From Treponema sp. J25 (GTDB lineage: Bacteria; Spirochaetota; Spirochaetia; Treponematales; Breznakiellaceae): DNA of 64,000 nucleotides. Position 1 is the stretch's first letter, and every line of letters starts with the position of its first letter. Position numbers and translations under genes: made by a program. The notes beneath the pieces were generated by a model that was not told the origin of the DNA, ran no database searches, and was given only the letters and a program-made list of their open reading frames with translations. The stretch is taken from NCBI RefSeq assembly GCF_004343725.1, contig NZ_PTQW01000029.1, positions 1 to 64,000 on the forward strand, read 5' to 3'. Shown one piece after another: positions 44,597-52,750 of the stretch.

Positions 44597-44626
44597 ACTA
44601 TAGGGAGCTTCTATGGTGCATGTCAA
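44597..44626 (-). promoter_or_regulatory. metG promoter, near-leaderless
   Basis: On the minus strand a perfect TTGACA (44626-44621), an 18-bp spacer and TATAGT (44602-44597) lie 9 nt before ATG 44587. Transcription should begin about 3 nt before the start codon. There is no Shine-Dalgarno. Confidence 0.65.
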
Positions 44627-46506
44627 GTTGATTGATTACTAAACTTAAGGAAGAAAGAAAACTCCTTTTCCTCTTCTGGTGCCAGAATCAATTGCTGGAG
44701 AGGGAGGAAAGAAACATAATAATAGGTATCTTCCCCTTGTTCATCCTGACAATGGGGAATGAGCCACAGGTCAAACGAAGGGGGGCCTCCCAAGGTAATA
44801 AAGGTATCATTCTTATAATCGTGAATAAGTACTTCTTCTACATCCTTTAGATGCTCCATGTGCCCAAGAACAGGGGTTTTGTTTCCGTTTCGCAGAACTT
44901 CCACCGGGAATCTATTAAGGCCACACCCCAGGAAAGAAAGATGAATCTGGGTAGTAAAATTAAACCGTTTGGGACTGAGGGCTGTGTTTTTTAACCGGTA
45001 CTGTACACAAAGGGCGTTTTTTTTAAGCTCAAACTTTTTATAAACTCTAATTTCCCCATAGGGATAGGTATCATCAATGGTGAGGGGACTTACCAATCCC
45101 ACCGATTGGTGCACCCTGTCGATTTCGATATTCTCATACCACTCTTCTCCACACCATCTGATGTTTCCTTTACATTCCCGTCCCTGGGCTTTGTAATGAA
45201 AAAGGGTAAGCTCCGGGGAAAAGAGCACATCCTTAAAAAGAGCTCCCCCTTCTTGTTCTCCTTCGGAAAAGAATTCCACGTAATTTTTTAATCGAGATAT
45301 ATAATCAAGTTCTATCACCGAGGCTCCACGATGATGAATATAACAATTCAGGTCTGTCCCTTGCAGAAGATACTCATCTCGACCATCAAAATCAAAATCC
45401 ATTCGTACCACCGAAGGGAGAAAAACTCCCCTGTCCCGGGTTATCTTTTCAGCCTCTAACAGAGAACGATAGACCTGACGTTTTACCCCCCACTGTCCGT
45501 GATTAACCGCATCAGAAAAAAAACTATCGCACCCCTGGGCTTTCCATAATTCTTCCCGGGCACTCTTTTTACGAGACTTATCTCCCCGCAATTGATTTAC
45601 AAGGGTATGGAGATATACTATTTTTCCATAGAGGTAGTTAGCCCCCTTACTTTGTAAGAGCCGTTTCCGTGCATGGGTGCTGGGGAAATAAACCTTTCGG
45701 AATCCCTGTTCAAGCCGCTGCAACCGATTGGGTAGAGTACATTCGATCCCCTGATGTTCCTCCGAAAGCTCTGCGAACAACTGGGCATAAAACAATTCCC
45801 GGTCCTGTTCAGAAGGAAGAGCCTGGGCCCGCAATTCAGGACGAAACACAAGGGTCTTAAATTCCTGAGGGGTTCCTTTTTTTATTTCCAAAAAGGCACC
45901 TTTGGTAAGGATTCTGGACACCTGGCCACGGAAGTTTTTAGGCTCAAACTGACTACTGAGAACAGAAGCTACCGGATAAACCCATACGACCTTTCCCTGA
46001 TCTTCCGTAAGGTACGGATAGTAGAGCTCCCCCTCTGAAACACCGGCGGCCTTAAAATTTTCTTCGTCCAAAATAGTATAATCCATCCCACAGGTATTAA
46101 GAAAAGCCGGGAAGTCTTCTTCCCACATAGAACGGGGAATCCAACAGCCCCGGGGCCGTTTTCCAAAGTGTTGACGGATAAAGGTGGTCAGTTTTTCTAT
46201 CTGCCCAATCCTATCGGTAAGGGAAAGAAGGGGAAACATGGGTTCATAGTACCCACCCCCTAAAATTTCAACCTGCTTTCGATTTACCAGTTCCTCGAGG
46301 AGCATAAAAAATTCCCCATGCTCCTGCAGAAGATATTCATACACAGGTCCAGAGTAATGCAAAAGGGCAGGAACCCGAGGATACCGATATAGGGCAGTAA
46401 TAAAGGGTTTTATGTTTTGTATATAGTTATTCTCATATATATCATGAGAAGCACCATAAGGGACATGATTATGGGAACAGACAAAAACTTTTATAGCTTC
46501 TTTCAT
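44623..46506 (-). CDS. GH57-family alpha-glucan enzyme-like protein, catalytic residues apparently replaced
   Basis: A 627-residue protein aligning with GH57 4-alpha-glucanotransferases/amylases along its length: CSHNHVPYG, LHYSGPVYEYL, VEILGGGYYEPMFPLL, and a C-terminal beta region of the DUF1926 type. In the Thermococcus litoralis enzyme the nucleophile Glu is in WLTERVW; here the position reads WIPRSMW. The acid/base Asp in FHDDGEKFG aligns with FRPELRA. Both carboxylates therefore seem lost. The start is ATG 46506, with AGGTGA 10 nt upstream; the in-frame ATG at 46542 lies inside the predicted -10. A glycogen synthase gene is elsewhere in the window (63442). Confidence 0.72.
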   Translation of the reverse strand: MKEAIKVFVCSHNHVPYGASHDIYENNYIQNIKPFITALYRYPRVPALLHYSGPVYEYLLQEHGEFFMLLEELVNRKQVEILGGGYYEPMFPLLSLTDRIGQIEKLTTFIRQHFGKRPRGCWIPRSMWEEDFPAFLNTCGMDYTILDEENFKAAGVSEGELYYPYLTEDQGKVVWVYPVASVLSSQFEPKNFRGQVSRILTKGAFLEIKKGTPQEFKTLVFRPELRAQALPSEQDRELFYAQLFAELSEEHQGIECTLPNRLQRLEQGFRKVYFPSTHARKRLLQSKGANYLYGKIVYLHTLVNQLRGDKSRKKSAREELWKAQGCDSFFSDAVNHGQWGVKRQVYRSLLEAEKITRDRGVFLPSVVRMDFDFDGRDEYLLQGTDLNCYIHHRGASVIELDYISRLKNYVEFFSEGEQEGGALFKDVLFSPELTLFHYKAQGRECKGNIRWCGEEWYENIEIDRVHQSVGLVSPLTIDDTYPYGEIRVYKKFELKKNALCVQYRLKNTALSPKRFNFTTQIHLSFLGCGLNRFPVEVLRNGNKTPVLGHMEHLKDVEEVLIHDYKNDTFITLGGPPSFDLWLIPHCQDEQGEDTYYYVSFLPLQQLILAPEEEKEFSFFLKFSNQST

Positions 46507-46540
46507 ACTGGTTTGATCACCTGGTTCCTCGTATTCTATC

Positions 46541-46569
46541 ATAATACCGTATATTCCGCAGTCTGAAAA
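46541..46569 (-). promoter_or_regulatory. Candidate promoter of GH57-like gene
   Basis: On the minus strand TTTTCA (46569-46564) and TATTAT (46546-46541) are 17 bp apart. The -10 includes the upstream ATG of the frame, supporting translation from 46506. Confidence 0.4.
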
Positions 46570-46698: not shown

Positions 46699-47277
46699 TT
46701 ACCGGAAAATAAAATAACCTATAGCTCCCATAATCATAGAAAGGATGCCCCCAATGAGAAGTACCAGGGCGCCCCCCCGTAGGGCTCCTACAGAACGCTC
46801 TACCGCTAAGCGCCGTACTATACCATTGACAACTATGAAGAGGCAATAGATACCACCGGCGATTCCCCCCACCATAGCCAGCGCATGGAGAAAGGTAGGG
46901 GCCAACAAAAATACGATGAGGGCCGAAAAAAGACTGAGACCATCAAATCCATTGTAAAGGGAGGAATTTTTTTCTTCTTCCTGAAGTTGTGTTGGTGGTA
47001 GAATTTTACGATGTATAAAGATGAAAAGCCCATGGATCCCCGCAAGGAGGGGTACCGTAGTAAAGAGTATTAAAAATTCCCTGTCTATAAATCCAAAAAG
47101 ATAGGTATACAAGATCCAGAGAACAAGGGATTCTCCGGCAAGGAGAAGCGGTATAAAAGGTCGAGGGAAAGAGGATGCCACAGTAGCCTCTCGGAAGAGT
47201 CTAAAGCCCATTCCCCAGGACAATATTCCATTAAAAAAGAGGGCGCTCACAAGACCATATATGAGATATTCCATCAC
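46699..47277 (-). CDS. rnfA: RnfA/NqrE-like membrane subunit, divergent
   Basis: A 192-residue membrane protein with about six hydrophobic segments. Size and topology fit RnfA/NqrE, and its position as last gene of the C-D-G-E-A series supports this, but the sequence is clearly diverged. It overlaps the rnfE-like gene by 4 nt. The gene for RnfB, the iron-sulfur subunit that usually follows, is absent: the next 157 bp hold no gene, and then the GH57-like gene begins. Confidence 0.6.
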   Translation of the reverse strand: MMEYLIYGLVSALFFNGILSWGMGFRLFREATVASSFPRPFIPLLLAGESLVLWILYTYLFGFIDREFLILFTTVPLLAGIHGLFIFIHRKILPPTQLQEEEKNSSLYNGFDGLSLFSALIVFLLAPTFLHALAMVGGIAGGIYCLFIVVNGIVRRLAVERSVGALRGGALVLLIGGILSMIMGAIGYFIFR

Positions 47278-47930
47278 TCCCCTTCCTTTTGTTCCAGGTA
47301 ATGACGGTATACCCTTCTAAAGAAACGATAGAGGGCTACCACATAACCAAACAAAATCAAAAGCCCCGCAGTACTGGCAAGAAGCTGGATAGCTATCGAC
47401 GCAGATTGTTCAGAAGAAAGGAAATTCACCGCCCCATATCGAGTAGGGATCGTAAGAGATCCATGCCCAAAGGGCTCGCGAATACATGATAGGGCAAGTC
47501 CCAACAAACCAACGATGAGGGCCTTGATGATACTCTGTCCCACAACCCGTTGGGGAAAGGAAAAGTCCAACATCGGAATACCGGAAGATAAAAAGAGAAA
47601 GGGTACGATCAACAAAAAGAAAAAGGTTTCCAGATACAAGATCGGAGAAATAAACGACAGGGCCAGTAAAAACACATACTGAACAAAAGCAGGAACAAGT
47701 ATCATAAGAATCTGCCAGGCAGCGCGCTCTTTTATGTTAAATAAATAAAGAAAAGAGAGTATGCCCACCGAAGAGGCCAAAAAAACTCCCAAAATATCAA
47801 GAAAAGCTATAATGCCATACGCCAGGGAACTACTCGAAAAAACAAGGAAACCCACAGCCCATAAGGAATACAGGGGAGAGGCATATCCCCAAAAAGGATG
47901 CATATCTAAATGGCGATTCTGGCTGCTCAT
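47274..47930 (-). CDS. rnfE: RnfE/NqrD-like membrane subunit, divergent
   Basis: A 218-residue protein with about six membrane segments, placed between RnfG-like and RnfA-like genes. The RnfE/RnfA pair normally forms the membrane core with a buried 2Fe-2S cluster held by cysteines from both subunits. Few cysteines are seen here (one in the LALSCIREPFGHGSL loop), so cluster binding is uncertain. It overlaps both neighbours by 4 nt. Confidence 0.6.
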   Translation of the reverse strand: MSSQNRHLDMHPFWGYASPLYSLWAVGFLVFSSSSLAYGIIAFLDILGVFLASSVGILSFLYLFNIKERAAWQILMILVPAFVQYVFLLALSFISPILYLETFFFLLIVPFLFLSSGIPMLDFSFPQRVVGQSIIKALIVGLLGLALSCIREPFGHGSLTIPTRYGAVNFLSSEQSASIAIQLLASTAGLLILFGYVVALYRFFRRVYRHYLEQKEGE

Positions 47931-48352
47931 TGTATAGCCCCCAATCTTCGTAAATGATGCAGTATTCTGTTCTCGTAGACATAGAGAAGCCGCGTTGGCG
48001 GAAGGGCCATAGCAGTATCATGATAAAAAAGAAGACAGGTATCCACAAACGTTCCTTCTCCGTTTATCACCTTTCCATAAAGATAAATCCGCCCCTGGTA
48101 GAGCACCGGAAATACCACAAGGATATGGGAACTTTTACTCAACTGGTAAGTTTTAAAGATCCCCGGCCCGGGTATTTCTTTTTCCAGCGTATAGGTGTAC
48201 CCTCTTTCTTTCAAGAGATACTGGAGCGCTTCCTTGAAAGAAGCATTTTTCAGAGGCGCGAGCAGGTACCAACTAAGTCCCCCGAGGATAAGAAAAACCA
48301 CTCCTATTACTAAAGGCAAAACCACGTCACGGCGCAGTGTGTGATGATCCAT
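47927..48352 (-). CDS. RnfG-position protein lacking the flavin-attachment motif
   Basis: A 141-residue protein with one N-terminal membrane segment (about 12-34) and a small extracytoplasmic domain. Gene order (between rnfD and rnfE) and topology match RnfG/NqrC. True RnfG is longer (about 180-210) and carries SGATxTS near the C-terminus, whose threonine is covalently linked to FMN. No such motif is present; the C-terminal region reads YHDTAMALPPTRLLYVYEN. It may be a reduced RnfG or an unrelated replacement. Confidence 0.5.
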   Translation of the reverse strand: MDHHTLRRDVVLPLVIGVVFLILGGLSWYLLAPLKNASFKEALQYLLKERGYTYTLEKEIPGPGIFKTYQLSKSSHILVVFPVLYQGRIYLYGKVINGEGTFVDTCLLFYHDTAMALPPTRLLYVYENRILHHLRRLGAIQ

Positions 48353-49419
48353 TATGGAATCCTTCGTGCTTTTTTATACAACAGAATAGTTTCCATCTCC
48401 CGTACCCAGGGGATGAAAACAACTCCCACTACCATTGCATACAGGGGTCCAAAAAGAATGCCCCCCGGATAGGTAAACACAAAACTCAATATCCCTAATA
48501 TAAAGGCCACAGAGAGGGCCCCCATAAGAGATTTTGTTCCGGTCACCGGTTCAGAAAGAATGATAAACGCAGCAAGGATAGTACCTCCGGAAAGAAGGGC
48601 AAACAGCATATCCCCTCCTCCAAAAATTCCTCCAAAGGGAAGGGCCCCATACAAACGAACCAGGACAAGATAGACAGCAAGATACACCAATGGAACAAGG
48701 AAGCGTACTACGGAAAAAGCCAGAAGGAGCATCGTGCCTAACAAAAGTCCCAGAGCCCCCCGATCAGCAATAATCCCCGGACCAGTATAGAAGAGTAGAT
48801 CAATATAGCCCCGCGGTAGTTCTGCATCAAAACGAGAAAAAAGAGTTTGATTCAAGAAAGAAACAATCCCCTCATCAAGAGAACTCGTCGTAAAGCCCAT
48901 ATACTTTAGCACCGCCAGGGGCGACCCGCCTGGATCCAGGATGCCTTTCCCTATTCCTTCCTGAATCTTTACAAGATGAGATTGTATAAGGGCATCCCGA
49001 AACAGATGGGGCCAGGAAAGGTACGAAAAAAGCCAGCCCCCCAGGGCAGGATTGAACCAATTTGCTCCTAACCCCCCAAAGCTTTGTTTAACCACCAGAA
49101 GGGCAAAAAGAACTCCCAGTACGAGTACCGCAGGATGTATCGTATGGGGCATCATAAGGGTTAGTATGAGGGCTGTAGCGATACTACTCCCATCTCCCAT
49201 ACTGGTATATTTTGCGTGGACGGTTCCCACTAAGAGCTCTACCACCAGCGCCGTTGCCACCGCAACCAGGGCGAGCAAGAAGGAATACCCACCATCGGTG
49301 AACGCCGACTGGACAATCCCCCCCAAAGCCGCGATAGAAACGAGCCACATCCGACTATAGGTGGGCAGGGTAATATGGATTAAGGGTTTTCGAGCCACGT
49401 GGATATGGGAAACGTTCAT
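48352..49419 (-). CDS. rnfD: RnfD/NqrB-like membrane subunit with altered flavin site
   Basis: A 355-residue polytopic protein with hallmarks of RnfD: RKPLIHITLPT at the start, GGLGANWFNPALGGW (about 115-129), and a late SEPVTGTKS. In canonical RnfD the periplasmic motif (D/T)xxSGATPLA carries the FMN-bound threonine. The matching stretch here reads DPGGSPLA (162-169), with glycine and serine in place of the SGAT core. Overlaps with neighbours are short or absent, so translation is probably coupled. Confidence 0.78.
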   Translation of the reverse strand: MNVSHIHVARKPLIHITLPTYSRMWLVSIAALGGIVQSAFTDGGYSFLLALVAVATALVVELLVGTVHAKYTSMGDGSSIATALILTLMMPHTIHPAVLVLGVLFALLVVKQSFGGLGANWFNPALGGWLFSYLSWPHLFRDALIQSHLVKIQEGIGKGILDPGGSPLAVLKYMGFTTSSLDEGIVSFLNQTLFSRFDAELPRGYIDLLFYTGPGIIADRGALGLLLGTMLLLAFSVVRFLVPLVYLAVYLVLVRLYGALPFGGIFGGGDMLFALLSGGTILAAFIILSEPVTGTKSLMGALSVAFILGILSFVFTYPGGILFGPLYAMVVGVVFIPWVREMETILLYKKARRIP

Positions 49420-50726
49420 TTTGCGGCGCCTCGCTTAATGGAAATTCGAATCACCGTGCTTAAAGGAAGCCGGGAAGGGCATACTACTTCACAACAGCCA
49501 CAACCGTGGCAGTCTACCACATTATATCGCCGGGCCTCCTCATCCTTTTCGAGAAGAGCGTATTTATATAACCGCTCCGGGTCGAGTCCAACCGGACAAA
49601 TACGACGACATTCCCCGCAGTTGATACAGGCGTAGGTTTGTTCTCCCCCGATTTGTTCCTCCGTAAGGGCAATCACGCTGACCGTTGTTTTGGTAATGGG
49701 CTCATCCAGGTCCTGCACGTACTTACCCTTCATGGTAGAGCCAGTGGCAATCCTGGCAGGGCGAGAAACAAAACCACCGCACTGGGCAATAGCATCCCCA
49801 ATGGTAGTGCCCAGACGAAGTCTCAGTACGCGAGGGCTCTTTACCGCTCCTCCCCCTACCGCCACATACCGTTCTAGAATGGGAATGTTATGGACAACCC
49901 CCGTGTAAATCGCATAGGCCGTAGCAGGATTAATAATACAATGATAGGAGGAAGGGGCGTTGTTTACTTTTTCATACTGTTTCAAAACGATTTCAAGTTC
50001 CCGCCTATTCCGCTGGGGATATCTGGCCCCTACATACACCACAGAAATCGATTCTTTATAGGGAGCGGCGGCCTGTTCAAATAAAGTGCCAAGGGCAGTT
50101 TCTTCTTCAGAGATGGTGAAAATAATGTGACTTCCCTTTGTGGCTTTCCGGAGAATTCGGGCTCCTTCGATGATTTCTTCCACATGTTCCTTACAAAGAA
50201 CATAATCAGCCACAAGCCAGGGATCATCAAAGACCATCCGCACTACCACAATAACCGGCTGCTGACTGGCGGTAGCTTCCCGAACCATATCGTACAGGGG
50301 TTTACCCGGTTCCTCCATTTCCACAAGGCCCTTGTCAGCAAAGGTTCGCAGCAAGTCCGCAGGGGAGATAGTCTCCCACTGATACCTTTCCTTCCGGTGC
50401 CCCAGGGTAGTAAAGGCCCCCTCGAGACGAATAACCAGCCCCTCCGTCGGCCGCCCATCCGCCAACGTCCAGGTAACTTTACGAATAACCCTTCCCGGGA
50501 TAGGGGCATGAATATGGGCAGACCCAGGACCCTTTCCTCGACCTATGAGCATTCCTTCGCTTACCCGATCTCCCACCGACACCAGGGGCACAGCCGCTTC
50601 TCCCGGATGTTGAATAAGCGGGACCACCGCAATCGAAGGCAAAAAGGCGGCAATACTCTCCGTGGCCGGAGGTGTGGAGGGATCCTCAAGAACGAGGCCT
50701 CCCTTTTTAAACGAATATATCTTCAT
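49416..50726 (-). CDS. rnfC: RnfC-like electron-transport subunit
   Basis: A 436-residue protein with the RnfC N-terminal barrel (VPLIQHPGEAAVPLVSVGDRV, HAPIPGRVI), a middle FMN/NADH-binding-like region (VGARYPQR, GVVHNIPILERYVAVGGGAV), and two C-terminal 4Fe-4S motifs, CINCGECRRICPVGLDP and CHGCGCCEVVCPSRLP. Both clusters look intact. In Rnf complexes RnfC exchanges electrons with NADH and RnfB; here no rnfB follows. It overlaps the upstream membrane-protein gene by 4 nt. Confidence 0.85.
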   Translation of the reverse strand: MKIYSFKKGGLVLEDPSTPPATESIAAFLPSIAVVPLIQHPGEAAVPLVSVGDRVSEGMLIGRGKGPGSAHIHAPIPGRVIRKVTWTLADGRPTEGLVIRLEGAFTTLGHRKERYQWETISPADLLRTFADKGLVEMEEPGKPLYDMVREATASQQPVIVVVRMVFDDPWLVADYVLCKEHVEEIIEGARILRKATKGSHIIFTISEEETALGTLFEQAAAPYKESISVVYVGARYPQRNRRELEIVLKQYEKVNNAPSSYHCIINPATAYAIYTGVVHNIPILERYVAVGGGAVKSPRVLRLRLGTTIGDAIAQCGGFVSRPARIATGSTMKGKYVQDLDEPITKTTVSVIALTEEQIGGEQTYACINCGECRRICPVGLDPERLYKYALLEKDEEARRYNVVDCHGCGCCEVVCPSRLPLSTVIRISIKRGAAK

Positions 50727-52126
50727 GCTGCAATCCGTCTTTCATACAAGGCTATTTTTTTTCTCTTTTTTACTACCCAACGGGTTCCCCCCTGTATAAT
50801 GACAGAATACCAGAAAAGAGACAATAACAAAACAGGGATTTTAAAGGAAGAAGACAGGTCTTTGCCGTTCATCCTCGGTACTTGAGAGAAAAACGACTCA
50901 AGAGGCGGTAGTTCCAGATGCTGCCATTCTGAGATATCCGGAGCAAGTTTTCCCCGGGCCACGGCAAAACCATCCCGATTCTTTTCAAATACCTGATAGT
51001 CCCGATCTGGATCCGCAAGAGAGGTATACATAAAATTAGCCTGTTTTTCTATATACGCCTGGTATTGCTCTTTCAATTGCCGAAGGTCTTCTCCAACATC
51101 CTCAAAACGGGCCTGAGGGGTTAGCCCCACTTCGCCCAGCACCAAGAGGGGGATCCCCATACCATACACTATAAGGGCCCTTTTCCATTGCCCTACCCTC
51201 TTACTATCAGAAAGAATAGGAATAGGAGAAAAAAATGCCCCGGGACGTTTTTGGAAGTAAGAACGAAGCATGAAAAGACTTATTACAAGTAAAAGAGAAC
51301 TCAGAAGGGCAAGAACAAACCAGTGCCAGGAGGAAAAAGCAAAAACCATTACCCCCCCATAGAGCAGGAATGCATAGGCCGCCTGCCAGAACTCGGTCCG
51401 AAACCACTGAAATACCCGACGATAGGGGGTACGTCGAAAAAAGAGCTCTTCCAGGGGAGTATAACCAGAGGCAAGGAGACTTAAAAGAGCCATACTTCCC
51501 GCAAGGCCCTCTACCCCTCGTCTGGAAAGAAAAACACACACCGGAAGCACAAGAAAAAAGGGAGGGGGAAGCCGTAATTTCATGATAAACCAGAGGGCCG
51601 CCCCTAATCCGATAAGCGGGGAAATCCACCACAGCCAGGACGGTACAGCACTCCCCCCAAGACGAACAATCTGGATCTGCTTTTGCTCTTTAAGGAGTTC
51701 TCTCTTAATATGCTCTATCCTATCGGTTCTTAGATAAAATACTCGCGAGGGACCACCGGTTTCCGTCTGCGGGATCACAAAAAGGGACCACAGATGTTCG
51801 ACATACCTATCATAGCGGGGATCTTCGGGGCTAATCCGTTCATGATAGTGTTCAAGAGGGAGCGCTTCGACACTCCCCATGGCATTGATATAGACCCACT
51901 CTCGAGAAAGACCTATGAGTTCTTCTTTTTGGAGTATCGGGAATTGTGCCCGAAGGGTCTCTTCGGAATAGTCTCCCGCTATAATCAGCTTATATACGCC
52001 CCCTGCAGGAACATTGTGGTACGTAAGAAGACCAAGCAACACCATGCATCCCAGCCCCACAACAAAAACAGCAAGGGGTATCCAGGGGAAAATAGGCCGA
52101 TCCACCATACGCGGGTCAGTTTTCAC
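50723..52126 (-). CDS. Unknown polytopic membrane protein co-encoded with Rnf-like genes
   Basis: A 467-residue protein that I do not recognise. One membrane segment at about 13-36, an extracytoplasmic region to about 160, then about six membrane segments (roughly 165-340), a helical charged region (about 360-430) and a final membrane segment near 440. It starts at GTG 52126 behind TAAGGG and overlaps rnfC by 4 nt, so it belongs to the same transcript. It could be an accessory or replacement subunit of the Rnf-like complex. Confidence 0.65.
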   Translation of the reverse strand: MKTDPRMVDRPIFPWIPLAVFVVGLGCMVLLGLLTYHNVPAGGVYKLIIAGDYSEETLRAQFPILQKEELIGLSREWVYINAMGSVEALPLEHYHERISPEDPRYDRYVEHLWSLFVIPQTETGGPSRVFYLRTDRIEHIKRELLKEQKQIQIVRLGGSAVPSWLWWISPLIGLGAALWFIMKLRLPPPFFLVLPVCVFLSRRGVEGLAGSMALLSLLASGYTPLEELFFRRTPYRRVFQWFRTEFWQAAYAFLLYGGVMVFAFSSWHWFVLALLSSLLLVISLFMLRSYFQKRPGAFFSPIPILSDSKRVGQWKRALIVYGMGIPLLVLGEVGLTPQARFEDVGEDLRQLKEQYQAYIEKQANFMYTSLADPDRDYQVFEKNRDGFAVARGKLAPDISEWQHLELPPLESFFSQVPRMNGKDLSSSFKIPVLLLSLFWYSVIIQGGTRWVVKKRKKIALYERRIAA

Positions 52127-52135
52127 AGAAAACCC

Positions 52136-52624
52136 TTACAATAAGACAATCGCCGATGCAATTAACAGGCCAAGAAGGGCCCCTACCAGAACCTCCAGCG
52201 GCGCATGGCCCTGGATTTCCTTCACGGGGTAGTACTCAATGCCAAACCTATCATTTATGTGTTTACCCAGCATATTAAGAGAGCGGGCCTGGAGTCCCGC
52301 AGAACGACGAACCCCCATGGCATCCCGAATCACAATCAAGGCCAGGCACAAACTTACGATAAAGATTGAACTATCAAAACCTTCGGTAAATCCTACCGAC
52401 GTAGCCAGGGCACTTACTAAGGCCGAATGACTCGATGGCATCCCACCGGTTTTCCACAGGAGGGCATACATCACTTCTTTAAAAGAGCGCCGCGGACGGG
52501 TAATTAAAATGATAATAGCCTTCAGGACCTGGGCAAGAATAAGGCTCGTAATAGCAGCCAAAAACACCGGATGCACCACTAACTGCCTGAACTGCCGCAC
52601 ATACATCATTTCCATTCGTGACAT
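52136..52624 (-). CDS. Divergent PAP2-family (DUF212) membrane protein
   Basis: A product of about 162 residues with four or so membrane segments. DUF212/acid-phosphatase-related motifs are visible: KTGGMPSSHSALVSALATSVG, IVIRDAMGVRRSAG and GHAPLEVLVGALLG. Such proteins are related to vanadium haloperoxidase/PAP2 phosphatases. The start is probably ATG 52624 or 52615; the frame opening at 52726 runs through an IS-derived sequence. It ends 9 nt before the next gene and probably begins the Rnf-like transcript. Confidence 0.75.
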   Translation of the reverse strand: MSRMEMMYVRQFRQLVVHPVFLAAITSLILAQVLKAIIILITRPRRSFKEVMYALLWKTGGMPSSHSALVSALATSVGFTEGFDSSIFIVSLCLALIVIRDAMGVRRSAGLQARSLNMLGKHINDRFGIEYYPVKEIQGHAPLEVLVGALLGLLIASAIVLL

Positions 52625-52681
52625 TGGGTAACAATTGCCCAGATAGGCTCTTTTGTCAAGAAGTCTCTCTAGTATAGAATG

Positions 52682-52750
52682 TGTTGTATCAACAGAGATG
52701 ATACTCCCTGAGCCACCCCGATCCAACGGATAGGGTAAAATAGGGAATAC
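52682..52750 (+). repeat. Relic of an IS481-like left end
   Basis: This stretch aligns with the first ~70 bp of the IS481-like element at 12455. The TGTT start, AACAGA, ATG and TAC blocks match with scattered substitutions, and CCCCGATCCAACGGATAGGG (52716-52735) is identical to 12491-12510. No transposase or opposite end is visible nearby, so it is a solo end or decayed copy. It lies upstream of both the PAP2-like gene and the pseudouridine synthase. Confidence 0.75.

Follow-up and report, generated by a model that had tools for sequence, protein, structure and literature searches.

What does an Rnf operon do when it has no rnfB and no sites for flavin attachment? The question is raised by five translationally coupled open reading frames on the minus strand (46699-50726) of the window, by which we mean the whole 64,000-nucleotide stretch of Treponema sp. 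J25 DNA analysed here. The initial annotation had recognized in them the order C-D-G-E-A, had supposed that, to reach the membrane from RnfC, electrons would have to take some other path, and had raised the possibility of a new Rnf-derived complex. We consider it reasonably likely that the operon belongs to an ancient Rnf paralogue of Spirochaetia, here called Rnf2, which, in the window's and the Treponema families, has been reshaped to form a complex in the membrane that has no electron path across it and acts as a redox-responsive gate or sensor. Ion pumping by electron transfer is probably no longer done by Rnf2, which would have another role instead.

Composition of the operon and its genomic setting

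The features of the locus are as follows.

44623..46542, minus strand: GH57-family protein, conserved neighbour (PF03065, 1.6e-31; synteny)
46699..47277, minus strand: RnfA-like protein, 192 aa (hhalign; motif table)
47274..47930, minus strand: RnfE-like protein, 218 aa (hhalign; PDB matches of the AF2 model; motif table)
47927..48352, minus strand: RnfG-position protein, 141 aa (hhalign to SGAT-bearing RnfG)
48352..49419, minus strand: RnfD-like protein, 355 aa (PF03116, 1.2e-47; alignment to A. woodii RnfD; family table)
49051..49053, minus strand: codon of RnfD N123 (alignment), the residue being a riboflavin ligand in A. woodii Rnf (PMC11889175)
49416..50726, minus strand: RnfC-like protein, 436 aa (TIGR01945, 252.6 bits; alignment to 7zc6_C, 8ahx_C and 9eri_C; motif table)
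49479..49628, minus strand: two CxxCxxCxxxC [4Fe-4S] motifs of RnfC, codons C367-C416 (sequence)
50723..52126, minus strand: X, membrane protein of 467 aa encoded at the head of the operon, with a 4-base overlap with rnfC
52136..52726, minus strand: divergent PAP2 (DUF212) protein, conserved upstream neighbour (PF02681, 4.1e-42)

Adjacent frames among the five overlap by 1-4 bases, and X is a sixth member, giving a coupled operon X, C, D, G-like, E-like, A-like. RnfC exceeds the cut-off of its model, and RnfD matches PF03116 with 163 bits while reaching 106 bits against TIGR01946, short of the cut-off of 207. At the G, E and A positions no Rnf model matched among Pfam or NCBIfam. A first guess from the missing Pfam hits, that the E and A proteins are unrelated to Rnf, was ruled out by profile-profile comparison: the former is a very diverged RnfE (hhalign 97.4%, E 1e-11) and the latter a very diverged RnfA (99.0%, E 7e-18). 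The best nine PDB matches of the AF2 model of the RnfE-like protein are all RnfE/NqrD. The G-position protein, a single TM helix followed by a short domain, has weak homology to SGAT-bearing RnfG (hhalign 83%, E 8e-6) and may plausibly be an RnfG that has been truncated. In having homologues of RnfC, D, E and A in CDGEA order the operon agrees with an Rnf complex, and the gene order first described stands. Against the PrdC model (TIGR04481) the RnfC-like protein scored 71.2 bits, below the cut-off of 490.

In the class, X precedes rnfC at almost every Rnf2 locus; it is absent in T. pallidum. It consists of an N-terminal TM helix, a small extracytoplasmic alpha/beta domain and then about seven TM helices (AF2 model, pLDDT 79), and a Pfam search placed it in no family. 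A half-RND/SecDF-like fold was considered and set aside, Foldseek of the AF2 model giving E values of 0.2 or worse, the usual background, and VIA-align a Z of about 6 with an rmsd of 8-9 Å, so that no fold is assigned. The PAP2 gene occupies the equivalent position at loci L006, L008, L102, L120 and L144, and the GH57 gene is a constant neighbour of Rnf2 across the order Treponematales and the class. By alignment, the GH57 protein of the window lacks the nucleophile Glu, a loss found in the families with degenerate Rnf2.

Is rnfB really missing, as had been claimed? Family searches of the gene content located, at another place in the genome (G000:C14, L004), an rnfCDGEAB operon that is canonical and complete, together with a separate NQR (L136) and ApbE; thus both the second complete operon and the flavin transferase that the initial annotation had suggested looking for exist. 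The RnfB of the canonical operon is the only one in the genome, and two further PF04060 proteins, candidates for the missing subunit, are [FeFe]-hydrogenase-like sensory PAS/MCP proteins. The window's operon has no intact RnfB; rnfB is absent from this operon only, which is a second, divergent Rnf paralogue.

Cofactor signatures and the electron chain

In canonical Rnf, RnfC receives electrons from the riboflavin of RnfD and hands them to NAD+. How much of this chain is left in the window? RnfC retains both [4Fe-4S] motifs (C367/370/373/377 and C406/409/412/416), as originally reported, and two clusters are predicted from these eight cysteines. Its FMN/NAD motifs GGAGFP and ECEPY have been lost, with EMEEPGKP and FDDPW found in the window. 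All four RnfA/E [2Fe-2S] cysteines, both in the RnfE-like and both in the RnfA-like protein, are gone, which is the outcome of the check for conserved cysteines that had been suggested for these subunits. The G-position protein is short and without a flavinylation motif, in agreement with the first reading: PF04205 has no match at the locus (two lie elsewhere in the genome) and the C-terminal part of the protein contains no SGAT. In RnfD the SGAT (FMN-Thr) segment is deleted. This part of the earlier description is correct, but DPGGSPLA does not replace SGAT in position, because intermediates carry both segments, as at locus L101, where SGATPL is followed by GSPMEIL about 20 residues downstream; the window's family has lost the former segment and kept the latter (GSPMEIL/DPGGSPLA). 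The same intermediates rule out S166 in DPGGSPLA as a substitute for the FMN threonine. No NqrF-like gene is found in the operon.

The residues N120, N123 and E290 of RnfD, which belong to the riboflavin site and the proposed Na+ site, are retained, N123 aligning without gaps with N123 of A. woodii, and the D249 position (A. woodii numbering) holds Glu, a conservative change. The riboflavin ligands are N123 and D249 in A. woodii (PMC11889175), and their counterparts in C. tetanomorphum are N124/D248 (PMC9588780). Riboflavin binding is thus predicted from N123 and the Glu; this reading rests on two or three residues, which may be structural too.

The extent of the loss had therefore been understated, as the RnfC FMN/NAD motif and the four RnfA/E cysteines are missing besides the sites already noted. 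One end of the chain (RnfB, [2Fe-2S], FMN-G and FMN-D) and the other end (the RnfC FMN/NAD site) have both disappeared, leaving the middle, namely the RnfD riboflavin-site residues and the two RnfC cluster motifs. The idea that electrons reach the membrane from RnfC by another path was only half right: since both ends are missing, the simplest inference is that Rnf2 has no transmembrane electron route.

Rnf2 across Treponematales and in T. pallidum

Besides the family of the window (f1, 26 loci), Rnf2 includes groups f2-f5 and basal class-level loci, and the loss of signatures is graded among them. The class-level loci L142, L143 and L148 have all Rnf cofactor signatures, f2, f4 and f5 have part of them, and f1 and f3 almost none. 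RnfB is present in class-level, f4 and f5 Rnf2 and truncated at a few f1/f3 loci (L045, L111, L112, L116); the RnfD SGAT segment, deleted in f1/f3, is present in most basal Rnf2. In f1 (26/26 loci) and Treponemataceae, intact RnfB, the RnfC FMN/NAD motif and both covalent-FMN sites are absent, and at least three of the four RnfA/E cysteines have been lost (at most one of four remains in f1, none in T. pallidum). From these motifs we infer that Rnf2 has lost cofactors, and at the level of sequence its derivation from a complete, cofactor-bearing Rnf has been shown.

The eight-cysteine pattern is kept in all 66 distinct RnfC proteins without GGAGFP. A loss of the ferredoxin domain, suspected in some family members because local matches ended near residue 360, was dismissed by this survey and by examination of L059, which has the motif. 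In f1, RnfD has N120/N123 at every one of the 26 loci and an acidic residue at the D249 position likewise (Asp in 21), and some f3 members have Trp at that position and Ser for N120. Might Rnf2 be a structural relic or scaffold, kept, as has been suggested for NqrA, for assembly or membrane architecture, with the RnfC clusters serving stability or a soluble electron transfer apart from the membrane part? NqrA sets a precedent as a retained, cofactor-free RnfC homologue (PMC12174285), and the nucleophile loss of the adjacent GH57 protein in the same families looks like a parallel loss of catalysis. However, the cysteines of NqrA disappeared after its chain was broken (PMC4014512), and the strict conservation of the eight cysteines, together with that of the f1 riboflavin-site residues, favours redox chemistry; we regard a scaffold as rather unlikely.

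In a FastTree phylogeny of concatenated C, D, E and A, Rnf2 is separate from canonical Rnf, and f1 and f3 are sister clades whose joint clade has a support of 1.0. Reading frames are intact throughout the family and the order, and dN/dS in f1 pairs, of which most are saturated in dS and one is not, is 0.04-0.13 for C, 0.06-0.18 for D, 0.14-0.26 for E, 0.08-0.32 for A and 0.17-0.39 for G; the Rnf2 genes are therefore not pseudogenes. Cofactor sites and rnfB were lost step by step and independently, and G, E, A and X have diverged strongly, as would suit an operon decaying under relaxed selection, but the intact frames, dN/dS values well under 1 and retention in the 1.14-Mb genome of T. pallidum have already largely refuted decay, which is now very improbable. 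On the tree and the substitution rates, Rnf2 is a monophyletic paralogue that spans the order, evolves under purifying selection and persists even in genomes from which canonical Rnf has disappeared, which bears out the suspicion of a new Rnf-derived complex.

Fourteen genomes, T. pallidum included and each with a completeness of 95% or more, keep the degenerate Rnf2 and neither canonical RnfA/E nor RnfB, and their PF04060 hits are frames not like RnfB. The initial annotation had held that an rnfB encoded elsewhere would speak against it; one is indeed encoded elsewhere, but in a separate, complete operon, and these fourteen genomes do without it. They also weigh against a hybrid in which Rnf2 C, D, E and A serve canonical RnfB and RnfG as an alternative module in the membrane. 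The window's genome does encode canonical RnfB, RnfG and ApbE, but the Rnf2 RnfA/E lack the [2Fe-2S] ligands needed to accept the electron, and such a hybrid is improbable.

In T. pallidum, the syphilis spirochete, the Rnf-type locus (L120; GH57, A, E, G, D, C) is homologous and syntenic to that of the window, and it is the only such cluster found there, with one match to PF03116 and none to PF04060 or PF02508 in a family search of the genome. An atypical, flavin-dependent RNF has been proposed for this organism (PMC7512555; PMC11717252), and tp0151, at the same locus, is annotated as rnfD (PMC11371664); no mention of TP0152 was found in the literature searched. Its proposers read it as a working redox pump, a non-canonical flavin/flavodoxin-driven Na+ pump, and the genome has ApbE and two FMN_bind proteins. 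The cluster, however, lacks the sites required, namely both FMN sites, the A/E cysteines, RnfB and the RnfC FMN motif, and we give the pump little credence. Membrane energization of T. pallidum is currently explained by this pump, whose underlying cluster belongs to a lineage without the signatures of a transmembrane redox chain. If the present reading of Rnf2 is right, the proposed pump is doubtful: the model is wrong or else relies on chemistry without precedent, and both can be tested.

A proposed role and comparison with known systems

How might Rnf2 work? Its subunits would still assemble in the membrane, where RnfC may exchange electrons both with the riboflavin of RnfD and with a soluble partner in the cytoplasm, as a cytoplasm-side relay. 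With the periplasmic exit absent, so short a relay would be incapable of ion pumping by the Rnf mechanism. RnfD has relatives among the urea/ammonium transporters (PMC12174285). The most probable reading is that the conformation of this transporter-like subunit and its A/E partners is set by the redox state of riboflavin and the RnfC clusters, which would make Rnf2 a redox-responsive sensor or a gate of that kind for ions or solutes. More specifically, and only tentatively, Rnf2 may be a redox-gated channel or transporter for ions or solutes, whose RnfD is opened by its own riboflavin and the RnfC clusters as they sense the redox state of the cytoplasm, with no electron transfer across the membrane, and which is the sole Rnf-type complex in T. 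pallidum and about twelve other treponemes. Were this so, these species would have no redox pump of the Rnf class.

The Na+-translocating ferredoxin:NAD+ oxidoreductase Rnf (A. woodii 9eri, C. tetanomorphum 7zc6, A. vinelandii 8ahx) shares with Rnf2 the order C-D-G-E-A, homologous C, D, E and A, the two RnfC [4Fe-4S] motifs and the RnfD riboflavin-site residues. Rnf2 differs in lacking intact RnfB, the covalent-FMN sites, the RnfA/E [2Fe-2S] ligand set and the RnfC FMN/NAD motif, and in adding protein X and the GH57 neighbour. It offers a natural dissection of the Rnf parts able to work without electron transfer across the membrane. PrdC and other stand-alone RnfC-like electron-transfer proteins likewise place an RnfC-type protein outside the standard complex, whereas Rnf2 retains membrane subunits. 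Na+-NQR, like Rnf2, is a duplicated rnf operon that lost rnfB; it acquired NqrF and still has the cofactor chain in the membrane, but the RnfC clusters are gone, its NqrA-type RnfC being without clusters where that of the window has eight cysteines. Rnf2 is the reverse and gained no NqrF. Beside NQR, it is a second case of a duplicated rnf operon without rnfB, but one that ended the other way round, with the pump core stripped and the clusters on the output side preserved.

The Rnf2 operon and its genome

Six minus-strand open reading frames at 46699-52126, with neighbours overlapping by 1-4 bases, constitute the operon of a divergent second Rnf paralogue (Rnf2).

Features of the Rnf2 operon, its surroundings and related proteins elsewhere in the genome
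50723-52126, minus strand: X, 467 aa, family unassigned
Operon 46699-52126, minus strand: C, 436 aa, recognised by Pfam and NCBIfam
Operon 46699-52126, minus strand: D, 355 aa, recognised by Pfam and NCBIfam
Operon 46699-52126, minus strand: RnfG-position protein, 141 aa
Operon 46699-52126, minus strand: RnfE-position protein, 218 aa
Operon 46699-52126, minus strand: RnfA-position protein, 192 aa
44623-46542, downstream of the operon: GH57-family gene
Downstream of the operon: metG
Upstream of the operon: DUF212/PAP2-like gene
Upstream of the operon: pseudouridine synthase gene
Contigs C32 (locus L002, 328-2151) and C33 (locus L003, 191-2275): [FeFe]-hydrogenase-like PF04060 proteins with fused PAS or methyl-accepting chemotaxis domains

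Pfam and NCBIfam searches of the operon matched C and D only, leaving the X, G, E and A positions without a match. In profile-profile comparison, the E and A profiles of the window's family matched canonical RnfE (97.4% probability, E 1e-11) and RnfA (99.0%, E 7e-18), and the G-position family weakly matched the N-terminal half of RnfG (83%, E 8e-6). The nine best PDB matches of an AF2 model of the E protein (mean pLDDT 78) are RnfE/NqrD chains (probability 0.87-0.99, weak E-values). On the basis of the coupled frames, family matches, profiles and model, the Rnf-like operon described in the initial annotation at 46699-50726 is real and its C-D-G-E-A assignment from gene order is correct. The AF2 model of X loosely resembles half of an RND/SecDF protein, possibly by chance.

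The genome (3.18 Mb, 99.9% complete) also carries, on contig C14, a canonical rnfCDGEAB operon with every cofactor motif, the flavinylation motifs of its RnfG and RnfD being AST and STAT-type variants. Thus, the window operon is a second paralogue, and rnfB, initially reported as missing, is absent from this operon only. The genome search found all of rnfB, a second complete rnf operon and a single flavin transferase ApbE. Contig C30 carries NqrB-E-like genes, and FMN_bind matches are restricted to canonical RnfG and NqrC. Two more matches to the RnfB-type domain PF04060, the [FeFe]-hydrogenase-like fusions on C32 and C33, are probably redox/H2 sensors.

Cofactor sites lost and kept under selection

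In canonical Rnf, electrons pass from ferredoxin through the RnfB clusters, the RnfA/E [2Fe-2S] cluster, FMN-G, FMN-D, riboflavin-D, two RnfC clusters and FMN-C to NAD+ (PMC12174285; PMC11889175). In the window and its family, signatures are gone for all steps before riboflavin-D and all after the RnfC clusters: RnfB is absent from their Rnf2 loci except for a truncated copy in L045, zero or one of the four RnfA/E cysteines is present, motif comparison finds no covalent-FMN motif SGAT in D or G, as originally noted, and the RnfC FMN/NAD motifs GMGGAGFP/ECEPY are lost, with EMEEPGKP/FDDPW in their place in the window. The eight cysteines of both RnfC 4Fe-4S sites, also recognised from the outset, are retained by all 66 distinct RnfC proteins lacking GGAGFP. 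Residues equivalent to known riboflavin contacts are kept as well: A. woodii RnfD N123 and D249 hydrogen-bond riboflavin (PMC11889175), the C. tetanomorphum counterparts N124 and D248 also being a proposed Na+ site (PMC9588780), and all 26 loci of the family have Asn at the former position and Asp/Glu at the latter (Treponemataceae: Asn in 8/9, acid in 6/9). As read from sequence, the kept RnfD-RnfC sites form a contiguous stretch of the electron chain, which may still carry electrons.

Within the window's family, C is the most constrained subunit, with pairwise NG86 dN/dS of 0.04-0.13; D has 0.06-0.18, E 0.14-0.26, A 0.08-0.32 and G 0.17-0.39. For L046/L057, the only pair clearly free of saturation (dS 0.39-0.72), the values are 0.09, 0.18, 0.20, 0.23 and 0.36 for C, D, E, A and G. 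Rnf2 subunits are thus functional proteins, and a decaying operon, which might also shed cofactor sites, is contradicted by values of 0.04-0.39 across the subunits.

Vertical inheritance and independence of Rnf2

The window's RnfD has a match in 118 of 120 family genomes, some being weak matches to canonical RnfD only. The same GH57 gene adjoins Rnf2 in four families of the order (the window's family, Treponemataceae, f4 and f5) and in several families elsewhere in the class; f2 is represented by one contig ending before the GH57 position. Loci L142, L143 and L148 have the order X-C-D-G-E-A-B-GH57 with complete motifs, f4 (L102, L106, L119) and f5 (L103, L105, L107) loci retain B and most motifs, and nearly all cofactor motifs are gone from the window's family and Treponemataceae. 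When C, D, E and A are concatenated, the resulting tree sets the 49 Rnf2 tips apart from canonical Rnf, and the window's family (support 0.86) and Treponemataceae (1.0) are each monophyletic and sisters (joint clade 1.0). Because fully equipped versions lie at the base of Rnf2 and these two families are sisters, the losses occurred within Rnf2, and in part independently, since truncated RnfB (L045 and three Treponemataceae loci) and one of four RnfA/E cysteines remain in some members of both.

The window's GH57 has WIPRSMW at the WLTExxW-type motif, lacking the nucleophile Glu, which is also missing in nearly all of its family and Treponemataceae and kept in L140, L141 and L144 (WITEQVW, WIPEMVW); it is likely a pseudo-enzyme that lost catalysis in parallel with Rnf2. 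In L144 (2289-6407), one class-level genome has DUF212, X and GH57 side by side, uninterrupted by rnf genes; X and GH57 may therefore be an independent unit that the rnf block entered or left.

INDEPENDENCE from canonical Rnf, Rnf2-type RnfD occurs alone in 14 of 118 genomes, each at least 95% complete: 13 Treponemataceae, T. pallidum among them, and one of the window's family. Four f4 genomes (G127, G130, G133, G148; genera g64, g66) keep canonical RNF and NQR and have no Rnf2-type RnfD; Rnf2 is therefore losable in one branch while others keep only Rnf2. A hybrid complex borrowing canonical RnfB/G is opposed by the 14 genomes, in which a PF02508 search found no canonical RnfA/E, the single match (G029) adjoining its Rnf2 RnfD, and no RnfB was found, the few PF04060 matches being partial and hydrogenase-type (model positions 4-32, mostly long frames). 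Of the 14 genomes, G129 (1,139,633 bp) is identified as T. pallidum by an ApbE that matches PDB 4ifu with full identity across 340 residues. Its locus reads GH57, A, E, G, D, C, ordered as elsewhere, with B and X absent; tp0151 is annotated as rnfD (PMC11371664). The model published for T. pallidum, a flavin-dependent RNF (PMC7512555; PMC11717252), would make Rnf2 a redox pump, but the sites of the known mechanism are absent, and sequence does not support an RNF pump working by it.

Possible roles and known systems

The analysis demonstrates which cofactor signatures were lost or retained, that the subunits are under selection, and that Rnf2 is inherited vertically and is independent. Beyond this, Rnf2 is very probably a paralogue of Rnf that lacks a redox path across the membrane. 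C-D-G-E-A would assemble with X, and RnfC and riboflavin would form a one-sided relay. RnfD, which has the fold of urea/ammonium transporters (PMC12174285) and through which Na+ passage in Rnf is proposed to run (PMC9588780), could be the base of a gating or sensing role; the gate itself has a fairly low probability. A pure scaffold is a rival to such roles.

Rnf2 subunits are homologous to those of the functional Rnf complex, but its defining cofactor signatures are missing, which places Rnf2 outside that family. In the literature, incompletely covered, no description of such cofactor loss was found. The known duplicated rnf operon minus rnfB is NQR, which gained NqrF, kept the membrane chain and lost the RnfC clusters (PMC4014512; PMC12174285); the pattern in Rnf2 is the opposite.
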